Under the pieces are notes generated by a model. It was not told where the DNA came from. It was given only the letters and a program-made list of their open reading frames with translations, and made no database searches. Shown here in pieces: positions 26,086 to 30,093 of a stretch of DNA of 39,628 nucleotides. Each line of letters starts with the position of its first letter. The stretch's first letter is position 1. The translations under genes and the position numbers were made by a program. This DNA comes from Rubrivivax sp. (GTDB taxonomy: Bacteria; Pseudomonadota; Gammaproteobacteria; Burkholderiales; Burkholderiaceae_C). The stretch is taken from NCBI GenBank assembly GCA_026125665.1, contig JAHCKS010000043.1, forward strand, positions 1-39,628, given 5' to 3'.

Positions 26086-26305
26086 TCACGACGGTGCTGG
26101 AGAGCGCCGTGCGCGGGCCGCCCAGCCCCGGCGCGCAGCCACCGAAGGCGAGAAGCTCCCATAGACGCTCAGGTCCAGGAACTGCGCCGCCGTTCACATC
26201 GCCGTCTGGAGAGTCTGGGCGCGGATCAACGCGCGCAGCACCGAAGAAGCAAGGGCCGCGTCGATGACGCGCGCCGAATCTCTCAGGTACCGGGGACAGG
26301 GGGAG
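26086..26305 (+). promoter_or_regulatory. Tandem glycine riboswitch
   Basis: Two glycine aptamers lie head to tail in the 356-base spacer before the DadA-like gene. Aptamer 1: CTGGAGAG (26097-26104), ACCGAAGG (26141-26148) and the right-hand strand GACGCTCAGGTCCAGGA (26164-26180). Aptamer 2: TCTGGAGAG (26205-26213), CACCGAAGAAGCAA (26239-26252) and GAATCTCTCAGGTACCGGGG (26276-26295) followed by ACAGG. These three blocks per unit, in order and at the normal spacing, are the conserved core of the glycine riboswitch class. Aptamer 2 is the closer match; aptamer 1 departs in CTC AGG flanks. A separate hairpin follows before the ribosome-binding site. Upstream, 26037-26063 can form a weak hairpin with no T run. 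Confidence 0.9.
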
Positions 26306-26306
26306 C

Positions 26307-26341
26307 GGCACGCAGGGGCTCGTCGATCGGGCCCCCGTGCC
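26307..26341 (+). promoter_or_regulatory. Hairpin after the riboswitch (possible expression platform)
   Basis: GGCACG (26307-26312) pairs with CGTGCC (26336-26341) and GGGGC (26315-26319) with GCCCC (26331-26335), leaving a two-base bulge and an 11-base loop. No T run follows. The C-rich right strand could instead pair with the G-rich 3' edge of aptamer 2 (about 26292-26303), giving two exclusive states. The ribosome-binding site AAAGGA is at 26355-26360. Confidence 0.45.
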
Positions 26342-26367
26342 CCCACTTGATCCCAAAGGACCTGAAG

Positions 26368-27624
26368 ATGAAGACGATCGTTCTCGGCGCCGGCCTGCTC
26401 GGCGTCACCTCCGCCTACTACCTGCGCCAGCTCGGCCACGACGTGGCGGTGATCGACCGCCAGGCGAGCCCGGCGGCGGAGACCAGCTTCGCCAACGGCG
26501 GGCAGATCTCGGTCAGCCATGCCGAGCCCTGGGCCAACCCGAGCGCGCCGCTGAAGGTGCTGCAGTGGCTGGGCAAGGAGGACGCGCCGCTGCTGTTCCG
26601 CCTGCGCGCCGACTTGCGGCAGTGGTTGTGGGGGCTGGCCTTCCTGCGCGAGTGCACGCCGGCGCGCACGCGCCGCAACATCGAGCAGATCGTTCGCCTG
26701 GGTACCTACAGCCGCGCGATGCTGCAGGCCCTGCGCGCCGAGCACGGCATCGCCTACGACCAGCGCACGCAGGGCATCCTGCACTTCTACACGAGCGCGA
26801 AGGAGTTCGACGGCGCGGAAGCGCCGGCCGCGCAGATGCGCGAGCTGGGCTGCGACCGGCGCGTGATCTCGACCGACGAGGCCGTGAGGATCGAGCCGGC
26901 GCTCGCCCACGTGCGTTCGATGCTGGCCGGTGCCACGTACACCGCCGAGGACGAGTCCGGCGACGCCAACCGGTTCGCGCGCGAGCTCGTGGCGCGCTGC
27001 CGCGAAGACGGCGTGCAGTTCCTGATGAGCCACACCGTGACCGCGCTGCGCGAGGCCGGCGGCGCGATCGACCACGTCGAGGCCACCGACAGCGAAGGGC
27101 GCTTCCAGCGCATCCGCGGCGACGCCTACGTGCTGGCGATGGGCAGCCTGTCGCCGCTGTACGCGGCGCCGCTGGGCATCAAGCTGCCGATCTATCCGGC
27201 CAAGGGCTACTCGGTGACGATGCCGGTGAAGGACGCGAGCAAGGCGCACCAGGTCTCGTTGACCGACGACGAGTACAAGCTCGTCTTCTCTAGGCTCGGC
27301 GACCGGCTGCGCATCGCCGGCACCGCCGAGCTGAACGGCTACGACCGCGACCTGAACCGCGTGCGCTGCGAGGCGATCGTGCGTCGCGTCGAGGAGCTGT
27401 TCCCCGGGGCGGGTGATGCCTCGCAGGCGCAGTTCTGGACCGGGCTTCGGCCCGCCACGCCCAGCAACGTGCCGATCATCGGCCGCAGCCGGCTGCCCAA
27501 CCTGTTCCTCAACACGGGCCACGGCACGCTGGGCTGGACACACTCCTGCGGCTGGGGCAAGAGCATCGCCCGCATCGTCAGCGGCCTGAAGCCGGAAGTG
27601 GACTTCGCGTTCGCGGCGTCATGA
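26368..27624 (+). CDS. dadA: DadA-like D-amino acid dehydrogenase (FAD)
   Basis: 418-residue flavoenzyme of the DAO/DadA family. The N-terminal dinucleotide motif IVLGAGLLGVTSAYYLRQLG is followed by VAVIDRQASPAAETSFANGG, the usual DadA start; GDANRFARELVARC, FWTGLRPATPSNVPIIGRS and the final FLNTGHGTLGWTHSCGWGKS are typical. DadA enzymes oxidise D-amino acids to 2-oxo acids and ammonia and feed electrons to the quinone pool, at the inner face of the membrane. AAAGGA seven bases before the ATG at 26368 fixes the start. The tandem glycine riboswitch in the leader implies control by glycine, so glycine or an amino acid linked to its metabolism may be the true substrate. No alanine racemase gene is beside it. 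Confidence 0.92.
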   Translation: MKTIVLGAGLLGVTSAYYLRQLGHDVAVIDRQASPAAETSFANGGQISVSHAEPWANPSAPLKVLQWLGKEDAPLLFRLRADLRQWLWGLAFLRECTPARTRRNIEQIVRLGTYSRAMLQALRAEHGIAYDQRTQGILHFYTSAKEFDGAEAPAAQMRELGCDRRVISTDEAVRIEPALAHVRSMLAGATYTAEDESGDANRFARELVARCREDGVQFLMSHTVTALREAGGAIDHVEATDSEGRFQRIRGDAYVLAMGSLSPLYAAPLGIKLPIYPAKGYSVTMPVKDASKAHQVSLTDDEYKLVFSRLGDRLRIAGTAELNGYDRDLNRVRCEAIVRRVEELFPGAGDASQAQFWTGLRPATPSNVPIIGRSRLPNLFLNTGHGTLGWTHSCGWGKSIARIVSGLKPEVDFAFAAS

Positions 27625-28243: not shown

Positions 28244-28308
28244 GGGCGTCCTCGGTTTGCCTTGGCTCGGCTCAAATCAACTCAATGAGGCAGTTGGGGT
28301 CGTGGCGG

Positions 28309-28432
28309 GATCGGGCCGGCGGGGTGCCCTGCGCCGCGAATGTCCTCTTTCGGCGGCCCTGCTCCGCAAGCTCCGCAGGTCCCCCGAATGCCCCCTTGAT
28401 TTCGCTGCGCAGGGCACCCCGCCGGCCCGATC
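28309..28432 (-). repeat. Structured repeat, copy 1
   Basis: A perfect 26-bp inverted repeat (28309-28334 with 28407-28432) encloses a 72-base core. Read on the minus strand the core starts AGCGAAATCAAGGGGGCATT, then CGGGGGACC, a hairpin with stem CCTGC/GCAGG and a long loop, then GCCGCC and AGAGGACATTCGCGG. The core is shared with copy 2 but the 26-bp arms are not. Confidence 0.85.
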
Positions 28433-28473
28433 AGGCACCGTCGTGCACCTCGTCGAAGACAGACCACGGTTCC

Positions 28474-28588
28474 CGCCAAGGACGCCGGGTGGTCGGCGCA
28501 GCGAAATCAAGGGGGCATTGGGGGGACCAGCGAAGCTGGGCCGCCCAGAGAGGACATTCGCGGAGCCGACCGCCCGGCGTCCTTGGCG
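28474..28588 (+). repeat. Structured repeat, copy 2
   Basis: A 24-bp inverted repeat (28474-28497 with 28565-28588) has one mismatch (28490 against 28572), which is a G-U pair in plus-strand RNA. The 67-base core reads GCAGCGAAATCAAGGGGGCA, then a G run and GACC, a hairpin CCAGC-GAA-GCTGG, GCCGCC and AGAGGACATTCGCGG. Core matches copy 1; arm sequences are unrelated to those of copy 1. Confidence 0.85.
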
Positions 28589-28600
28589 CGCCACGACCTC

Positions 28601-28630
28601 GACTGACTGACTGACCTGACCTGACTGACC
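28601..28630. repeat. GACT/GACCT simple-sequence tract
   Basis: Three GACT units, two GACCT units and a last GACTGACC directly follow the composite repeat and precede the M28 peptidase stop. A short microsatellite prone to slippage; no function visible. Confidence 0.75.
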
Positions 28631-28641
28631 ACAACCGCGTC

Positions 28642-30093
28642 TCACAGCACCGCCGGCCCGAATGACACCGGCGCCTGCGCCGCGAGCCACGCCGCGGCGG
28701 CCCACGCGGCCACGTTCTGCGGCAGGCCCGCGGGGTCGATGCGCTCGATCGTGTCGTCCGCGGTGTGGTGCACGTCGAAGTAGCGGCTGCCGTCCTGCGA
28801 CAGCGCCAGCGCCGGCCAGCGGTGGCGGCGCATCAGCACCGCCGCGTCGGGGCCCGGCGAACCCTCGTTGCGGCCTTCGGTGGGGTGGGCGATGCCCAGC
28901 GGCGCCAGCACCGCGGCGATCGCTTCCATCGCCGGCAGCGCCTGCGGCGCGACGCGATGACGCACGCGGTACAGGCGCCCGGCGCCGAAGTCGCTCTCGG
29001 CCACCAGCTGGTGCGGCACGTCGCGGTAGCGGTTGCCGTAGGCGAGCGCGCCGTCGAAGCCGTTCTCCTCGTTGCCGAAGAGCACGACGCGGATCGTGCG
29101 CCGCGCGCGCCGGCCGGCCGCGGCGATCACGCCGGCAGCGGCGCTGACGATGGCCACGCCGGCGCCGTCGTCCTCGGCGCCCTGGCCGACGTCCCAGCTG
29201 TCCAGGTGCGCGCCGATGAGCACGATCTCGTGCGCGAGGTCGGTGCCGCGCCACTCGGCGATGACGTTGGCGGTGGTGGCTTCGACACCGCCCTCGGCCT
29301 GCAGCTCGACGTGCATGCGCATCGTCTGCCCGGCCGCATGCCGCGCGGCGATGAACTCGGCGTCGGGCACCGAAACGGCGAAGGCCGGGATGCGCGGCAC
29401 GCTCAGGTCGTAGCGCGTGGCGCCGGTGTGCGCGCGCGGCTCGCCACTGGTGCCGATGGAGCGGATGGCGAGTGCGAGCGCGCCGCGCCGCGCGGCCTCG
29501 ACCGGGCCGTTCGCGCGGGCGGCGACGGCGCGGCCGTAGCCGGCGCCGTCGCGCGTGCGCTCGGTGCGCTGGTCGATGAAGACGATGCGGCCGTGCGCCC
29601 TGCCACTGGTGTCGGCGCGCAGCGCCGCCAGGTCGGGGTACCAGGCGACCTCGGCCTCGATGCCCCCGGCCGGGGCGGCGACGCTGTTGCCGAGCGCCGC
29701 CATGACGAGCGACCGCGCCACCGGCACCGTGAGCCGCGCCGATGCCGGACCGCGCTGCCAGATGCGCAGCGGCAGCAGCTCGGCGCGCACCGCCTCGAGC
29801 TTCATCGCCCGGTACACCTGCTGCGCCCAGGCCTGCGCCTTCGCATCGGCCGGCGAGCCGGCCGGGCGCGCGCCGATCGTCGTGCACAGCTCGTGCAGCA
29901 GCCGCCACGCCGCGCCGTCGGCAAGCGCGCGGTCGCGCAGCGCGCGCGCGTGCGCCAGGTCGGCTTCGTCGAAGGAAGGTGGCGCCGGCATCGCTCTCGA
30001 TGCCGGCCCGGCGCAACCGGCCAGCACGAAGGCCCCGCCGGCCGCAGCGCCGAGCAGGCCGCGCCGGCGCGGCGACGACACGAGGGGACTCAT
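28642..30093 (-). CDS. M28-family zinc aminopeptidase, exported lipoprotein
   Basis: 483-residue protein. The N-terminus SSPRRRGLLGAAAGGAFVLAG with Cys27 looks like a Tat signal ending in a lipobox (VLAGC), so it is probably anchored in the envelope. A PA-like insert (about 140-270) precedes the catalytic M28 domain with GAHLDSWDVGQGAEDDGAGV (zinc His and Asp), FGNEENGFDG (catalytic Glu), VAESDFGAG and YFDVHHTADDTIERI (zinc His). All metal ligands of the family are seen, so it should be active on N-terminal residues of peptides in the periplasm. The closest relatives are the carboxypeptidase Q-like enzymes. A TACAAC lies eight bases before the ATG. Confidence 0.9.
   Translation of the reverse strand: MSPLVSSPRRRGLLGAAAGGAFVLAGCAGPASRAMPAPPSFDEADLAHARALRDRALADGAAWRLLHELCTTIGARPAGSPADAKAQAWAQQVYRAMKLEAVRAELLPLRIWQRGPASARLTVPVARSLVMAALGNSVAAPAGGIEAEVAWYPDLAALRADTSGRAHGRIVFIDQRTERTRDGAGYGRAVAARANGPVEAARRGALALAIRSIGTSGEPRAHTGATRYDLSVPRIPAFAVSVPDAEFIAARHAAGQTMRMHVELQAEGGVEATTANVIAEWRGTDLAHEIVLIGAHLDSWDVGQGAEDDGAGVAIVSAAAGVIAAAGRRARRTIRVVLFGNEENGFDGALAYGNRYRDVPHQLVAESDFGAGRLYRVRHRVAPQALPAMEAIAAVLAPLGIAHPTEGRNEGSPGPDAAVLMRRHRWPALALSQDGSRYFDVHHTADDTIERIDPAGLPQNVAAWAAAAWLAAQAPVSFGPAVL

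Follow-up and report, generated by a model that had tools for sequence, protein, structure and literature searches.

Two neighboring inverted repeats in the window (the whole stretch of 39,628 nt of Rubrivivax sp. DNA analyzed here) were found to be the halves of a single element of about 300 bp, which is repeated across its own genome and has homologues in other families of Burkholderiales and in Lysobacteraceae. Our favored reading, to which we assign a probability of about 0.5, is that of a dispersed non-autonomous mobile element with strand-specific DNA hairpins, which would resemble REPINs and BIMEs in its working and not by shown descent. Direct support comes from the family of copies, the pairing and covariation of their arms, a strand-specific excess of wobble pairs, the location and orientation bias of the copies among genes, and the presence of empty sites. 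We found no name for the element, which recurs as a structural feature in the genomes of environmental beta- and gamma-proteobacteria.

Table 1. Features of the element in the window (positions are those of the window).
Feature	Position	Strand	Basis
Whole two-hairpin element	28298..28603	.	Extent common to other genome copies (e.g., query 549-854 of window:27750-29200)
Half A, long hairpin, arm type A (GATCGGG..GGGGTGCCCTGC)	28309..28432	-	Inverted repeat, fold and arm typing
Half B, long hairpin, arm type B (CGCCAAGG..GGGTGGTCGGC)	28474..28588	+	Inverted repeat, fold and arm typing
Half A, conserved core 5' motif GCGAAATCAAGGGGGCATT	28387..28405	-	Core pattern search
Half A, conserved 3' motif AGAGGACATTCGCGG	28334..28348	-	Tail pattern search
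Half B, conserved core 5' motif	28501..28519	+	Core pattern search
Half B, conserved 3' motif	28549..28563	+	Tail pattern search
Outer closing arm GGTCGTGGCG, complementary to 28589-28598	28298..28307	+	Read from sequence; similar in many copies
Outer closing arm CGCCACGACC	28589..28598	+	Read from sequence; similar in many copies
Inter-half spacer, with GGCACCGT..ACGGTTCC as a possible third stem with one mismatch	28434..28473	+	Read from sequence

The sequence-only reading had described two inverted repeats with a common core, and both are present as claimed: the stretches 28309-28340 and 28401-28432 are 97% complementary, those at 28474-28505 and 28557-28588 are 91% complementary, and the 19-base core occurs twice in the window against no occurrence in 100 shuffled sequences when up to three mismatches were allowed. 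The exchange that it saw in the inner hairpin (CCTGC/GCAGG against CCAGC/GCTGG) is likewise real. The 15-base tail alone was not significant, with three matches in the window and an equal count in 29 of 100 shuffles. Folding of the core strand against shuffled sequences gave z-scores of -9.70 and -8.78 for the two halves, and an unrestricted fold of the whole unit pairs the two halves with each other. We discarded the outer and spacer stems as general features of the element. Across genera, complementarity of the outer arms is weakly above partner-shuffled controls (a complementary run of at least 6 bp was present in 35% of 78 elements compared to 20% of partner shuffles), and the stem within the spacer is weak as well. 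The spacer has a median length of 53.5 bp between arms and shows poor likeness between genera. Short GACCT/GACTGAC direct repeats adjoin the end of the element in the window (28595-28629), and three other loci (L011, L025, and L036) carry their own outer end in a tandem repeat (CTTGGCGCGCCACGACCTC).

Many further copies, which the earlier reading had called for, were found in this genome and in its order. The genome assembly (6.28 Mb in 268 contigs, 88.6% complete) contains 86 matches to the 19-base core with up to three mismatches and none to the reversed pattern. These matches defined 53 loci, of which 48 were kept after dropping five that overlapped others. Two halves in inverted order were found at 39 of the 48 loci and a single half at the remaining nine. 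All 39 complete elements consist of one A half and one B half (L024 and L033 each have one untypable arm). The two "copies" of the window are therefore the halves of one element, and 101 of 102 neighboring halves share the same minus-plus order; the sole pair in the same orientation (minus, minus) lies at L100, positions 2271-2524. The proposal that the arms are taken from the insertion site is ruled out by the existence of two fixed arm types. The other half of that proposal, exchange of arms, is possible: two of the single halves (L038 and L051) are hybrids of A and B and resemble the products of a deletion between the halves, and an orthologous Variovorax site (L252) carries a whole arm pair that by eye is of differing type. 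A third arm type was observed at L040, and at L024, near position 1561, an A half lacks its 3' arm and has another palindrome (GACACGAACAGTCCAGTGGACTGTTCGTG) in its place. The unlike sequences of the A and B arms may prevent one half from annealing to the other, although the unrestricted fold of the whole unit does pair them.

Because A and B are fixed types across the genome, the unlike arms of the window do not by themselves constitute covariation, as had been proposed for the two supposed copies. Covariation does appear among the many copies and across genera. Among 46 halves of the same genome (from 86 coordinate sets), 97.5% of the cells are paired, compared to 82.1% when shuffled and 33-45% when slid, and double changes are present at 27 of 39 pairs compared to 15.9 in shuffles. 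We then examined an alignment of 108 halves taken from outside this genome (a search of 77 loci, with E-values up to 1e-7), which was fitted to the structure and leans towards it: all 39 pairs present at least one double change, and the covariation score is 0.639 against 0.158 for shuffled and at most 0.112 for slid alignments. Homologues whose arms differ in sequence and yet stay self-complementary occur in other families of the order and in Lysobacteraceae. The short stem beside the arms reads GCGAAAT/ACATTCGC in 166 of 270 distinct halves and GCGAAGT/ACATGAGC in 60, the latter form replacing two Watson-Crick pairs with a tandem G.A step. Compensated variants (GTGAGGT/ACACGAAC in nine halves and GTGAAAT/ACATTCAC in seven) and mixed forms such as GCGAAGT/ACATTCGC (eight halves) were also identified. 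The 5' motif of many other genera includes a Shine-Dalgarno-like AAGGAGGAG within an internal loop, where the window's genome mostly has AAGGGGGC.

The wobble pairs indicate which strand folds. In 159 non-redundant halves out of 321, which were selected by their Watson-Crick pairs only, the arms present 282 G-T pairs and 26 A-C pairs when read on the core-bearing strand, with individual halves leaning 123:4 in the same direction. Since the two readings are mirror images of each other on the two strands, one strand must be the folded one. Strand-biased cytosine deamination could account for part of this excess. Together with the covariation within the genome and across genera, this result strongly supports the earlier claim of selection on a folded single strand. 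An apex was detectable in 259 of 270 halves (distinct, not independent); 196 of them are triloops and 162 of these are of the form C(GNA)G, a count that ignores relatedness. By comparison, three of 134 triloop hairpins outside the elements have this form, with either strand counted. Loops of the C(GNA)G type are exceptionally stable in DNA. RNA, too, may stably hold G-T wobbles, tandem G.A pairs and small loops. The sequence GCGAAGC appears in work on DNA aptamers stabilized by a mini-hairpin (PMC4686876). We infer that the folded molecule is more likely DNA than RNA.

The element is widely distributed. When 300 genomes of the order were searched with a model built from the halves of the window's genome alone (R1), 13 of them, including the window's own, contained homologues; matches outside the genus reach E-values of 1e-13 and many of them form inverted pairs. 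A gapped pattern yielded at least 118 stretches in named genomes. Variovorax, Ramlibacter, Rubrivivax, Hydrogenophaga, Rhodoferax, Ideonella, and Sulfurisoma are among the matches listed, as are Lysobacter, Luteimonas, Thermomonas, [Pseudomonas] hibiscicola, and others. A broader model (R2) found the element in at least four of 369 genomes of the class and at least 11 of 398 genomes of the phylum, numbers that are lower bounds given our strict filters. All R2 carriers belong to the window's family or to one other family of the class, and the R1 search of the order added two further families of the order. One contig labelled Bacillus subtilis SK7B5 (L136) also carries the element and is perhaps mislabelled or contaminated. 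We rejected a phage origin: a single pattern match was found in viral contigs, at a contig end, and neither the window element nor one Variovorax element matched any phage record. The window element had no match in plasmids; the plasmid search identified the Variovorax form in three large Variovorax replicons.

We then analyzed the genes around the element, called with a purpose-made caller based on codon usage. Among 94 independent sites (pairs of halves only), 57 are tandem, 28 convergent, three divergent, and six undetermined. Element-free gaps of at least 80 bp comprise 132 tandem, 16 convergent, and 70 divergent cases, and all neighboring gene pairs of the same loci comprise 349, 43, and 51, respectively; the latter set is the fairer base for convergent sites, since convergent genes normally lie close together. 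In 63 tandem pairs, with the extent of the unit taken as the core motifs plus 45 bp, the median distance is 29 bp from the upstream stop to the unit and 44 bp from the unit to the following start. The element avoids divergent promoters and tends to sit just behind genes. It is also oriented: the halves run A-then-B along transcription at 43 of 51 independent tandem sites (43:8, p = 7e-7). Before removal of orthologous sites, the same order was found in 32 of 33 Variovorax-type pairs (32:1) and in 20 of 25 pairs of this genome (20:5), the window copy being one of the five exceptions. Typing by arm consensus left out 21 of 131 pairs, including three read as BB and one as AA.

This orientation bias is unexpected of a purely selfish element and argues against the mobile reading. 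It may indicate that a polar orientation is purged, that insertion tracks the strand exposed behind the transcribing polymerase, or that the element functions in operons. The last of these leads to the main rival of the mobile reading, an element acting at the RNA level in operons and at 3' ends, which would be co-transcribed with the upstream gene and whose hairpins would protect the upstream mRNA end, set its processing, or block Rho. Such roles have been proposed for intercistronic REP and BIME sequences. We regard this explanation as possible, with a likelihood clearly below that of the mobile reading. The tight placement between tandem genes, the near absence from divergent gaps (3/94), and the orientation along transcription are all in line with it. 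However, in tandem-gene settings (not thinned for redundancy), the G-T to A-C ratio is 99:2 for the half in sense and 121:6 for the half that is antisense to the mRNA. The same excess exists on the other strand, which argues that the fold of the antisense half is not kept for that mRNA and that read-through transcripts do not explain it. The window copy has, moreover, the minority orientation, and a search of 28244-28641 detected no terminator-like site. Elsewhere in the window, a tandem pair of glycine riboswitch aptamers (Rfam; 26087-26309) directly precedes a gene at 26347-27624 whose product looks, by eye, like a D-amino-acid dehydrogenase.

Comparison with relatives revealed empty sites. 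At the window site, the element is missing from three related genomes, two of the same genus (G1073 and G1076) and one that holds a contig labelled Rubrivivax (G1055), with 29-53 bp between the aligned flanks compared to at least 406 bp in the window. All three genomes present many element matches elsewhere. At a second site, in Variovorax, five of 12 genomes have the element, one has a remnant and two have abutting flanks; in one further genome a contig end interrupts the site, and three lack a flank match among the matches listed. No target duplication is readable at either site, and at both of them the element was gained or lost together with additional flanking sequence. Gain is the simpler reading of the window site, and the Variovorax site could reflect gain or loss; the mobile reading would take each empty site as a gain.

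Multiple copies and empty sites would also be expected of a conventional MITE derived from a DDE insertion sequence by gene loss, whose ends would be the outer inverted repeat. Within a lineage, inverted ends do exist: GTTCRGGGCG..CGCCCYGAAC in Variovorax and GGTCGTGGCG..CGCCACGACC in the window's genome. Yet these ends differ between genera and are weakly complementary overall (35% against 20% in shuffles), target duplications were not seen at the two sites, and an origin of this type leaves unexplained the presence of two internal hairpins, the covariation of their arms, and their strand-specific wobble. We therefore consider it improbable. Finally, two small RNAs transcribed outward from the spacer, each with the core strand in sense, would agree with the outward direction of both cores and account for the equal wobble bias of both halves, but the spacer (median 53.5 bp) is poorly alike between genera and no sigma-70-like promoter was found in 28244-28641 (a weak test, as shuffles gave none either), so that this idea appears the least probable of all.

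No mover was found, which counts against the mobile reading. A linked transposase or reverse transcriptase, as suggested from the sequence alone, was not found by a Y1 family search or by inspection of neighboring ORFs. The 25 largest ORF clusters in 118 loci look, by eye, like common host genes. The family search for Y1_Tnp identified no gene in the window's genome (88.6% complete) or in two other copy-rich genomes (G171 and G187). A Y1_Tnp gene was found in 13 of 16 relatives, including 10 of 12 other carriers of the element. In addition, 17 Y1_Tnp loci of ~3.3 kb each contained no significant element, with a sole R1 match at E = 0.91. These 17 bare loci led us to reject RAYT as a linked mover. 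A RAYT that acts at a distance, or that has since been lost, may still be the mover.

We compared the element to known families of short repeats. ERIC/RU, Correia, RUP, and other short bacterial repeats are short, intergenic, and often palindromic; we know of no description of ERIC/RU, Correia, or RUP that includes two separate covarying hairpins with unlike arms. Like REP, BIME, and REPIN sequences, the element is high in copy number, extragenic, and composed of two inverted hairpins with a short spacer. A strand-specific folded single strand, which the wobble pairs (282 G-T to 26 A-C) suggest for the element, is a further likeness, as TnpAREP binds single-stranded REP and not iREP (PMC8266576). 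REP dimers with unlike stems and structured spacers have been described as well, with REP stems of 5-13 bp (PMC3733652). In contrast, the halves of the element measure ~90-130 nt; their arm has 24 bp, and they contain internal loops as well as loops of conserved sequence. The GTAG tag of REPs was found in the 16-nt foot of the 5' arm in two of 306 halves, in that of the 3' arm in one, and anywhere in the half in 29. Given the missing GTAG, the absence of Y1 from three copy-rich genomes, and the 17 bare loci, we describe the element as REPIN-like in its working and do not class it as a REPIN. CGTC-tagged repeats are also mostly inverted dimers that are not associated with a transposase, with stems of 8-9 bp (PMC3733652). 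The element shares the predominance of inverted dimers and the lack of association with transposase genes; it differs by its 24-bp arms, and CGTC is present in the arm foot of 12 (5') or 14 (3') of 306 halves and anywhere in 142 of them.

Searches of Rfam and of the literature gave no name. The only above-threshold Rfam matches in the window are the two glycine riboswitches, which lie elsewhere than the element; eight relative loci gave no match, and a permissive search of 28250-28650 returned nine matches (eight miRNA and one c-di-AMP), all below threshold. We recognized no paper describing the element among those within reach, most subscription papers being beyond it. The Burkholderiales-1 motif of Weinberg et al. 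(2010) is listed in their Table 1 as ambiguous as an RNA and has no Rfam number (PMC2864571). By that table, the motif shares with the element the order, Burkholderiales. The element may be Burkholderiales-1 itself, which limits any claim of novelty.

Our preferred mobile reading may be summarized as follows. Two inverted hairpins, about 250-300 bp in all, would be moved by a factor that we infer to act in trans. This factor would recognize each half as folded single-stranded DNA or as an extruded hairpin, on the strand that carries GCGAARTMAAGGRGG..GGRGGACATKMGC. Copies would survive just behind genes, and the A-then-B orientation would be tolerated or favored between co-directional genes. 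It is also conceivable, although we hold this only tentatively, that the element represents a new RAYT-independent class of mobile single-stranded DNA hairpins spanning Burkholderiales and Lysobacteraceae, in which the arms keep the halves apart, a dedicated recombinase or binding factor recognizes the halves on opposite strands, and one orientation prevails in operons. The element offers a clean case in which to ask how short palindromic repeats could spread when no RAYT is resident, and whether the orientation that they prefer behind genes reflects a tolerated scar or a function.

Open reading frames run through the element in the window, and the element may underlie some spurious predicted proteins. 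In Luteimonas (L161, 573-4463), two opposite elements ~3.5 kb apart flank four called genes. At another locus (L078, 1501-2339), the halves lie 650 bp apart with a small gene between them whose product resembles, by eye, a membrane protein. Both arrangements looked incidental.
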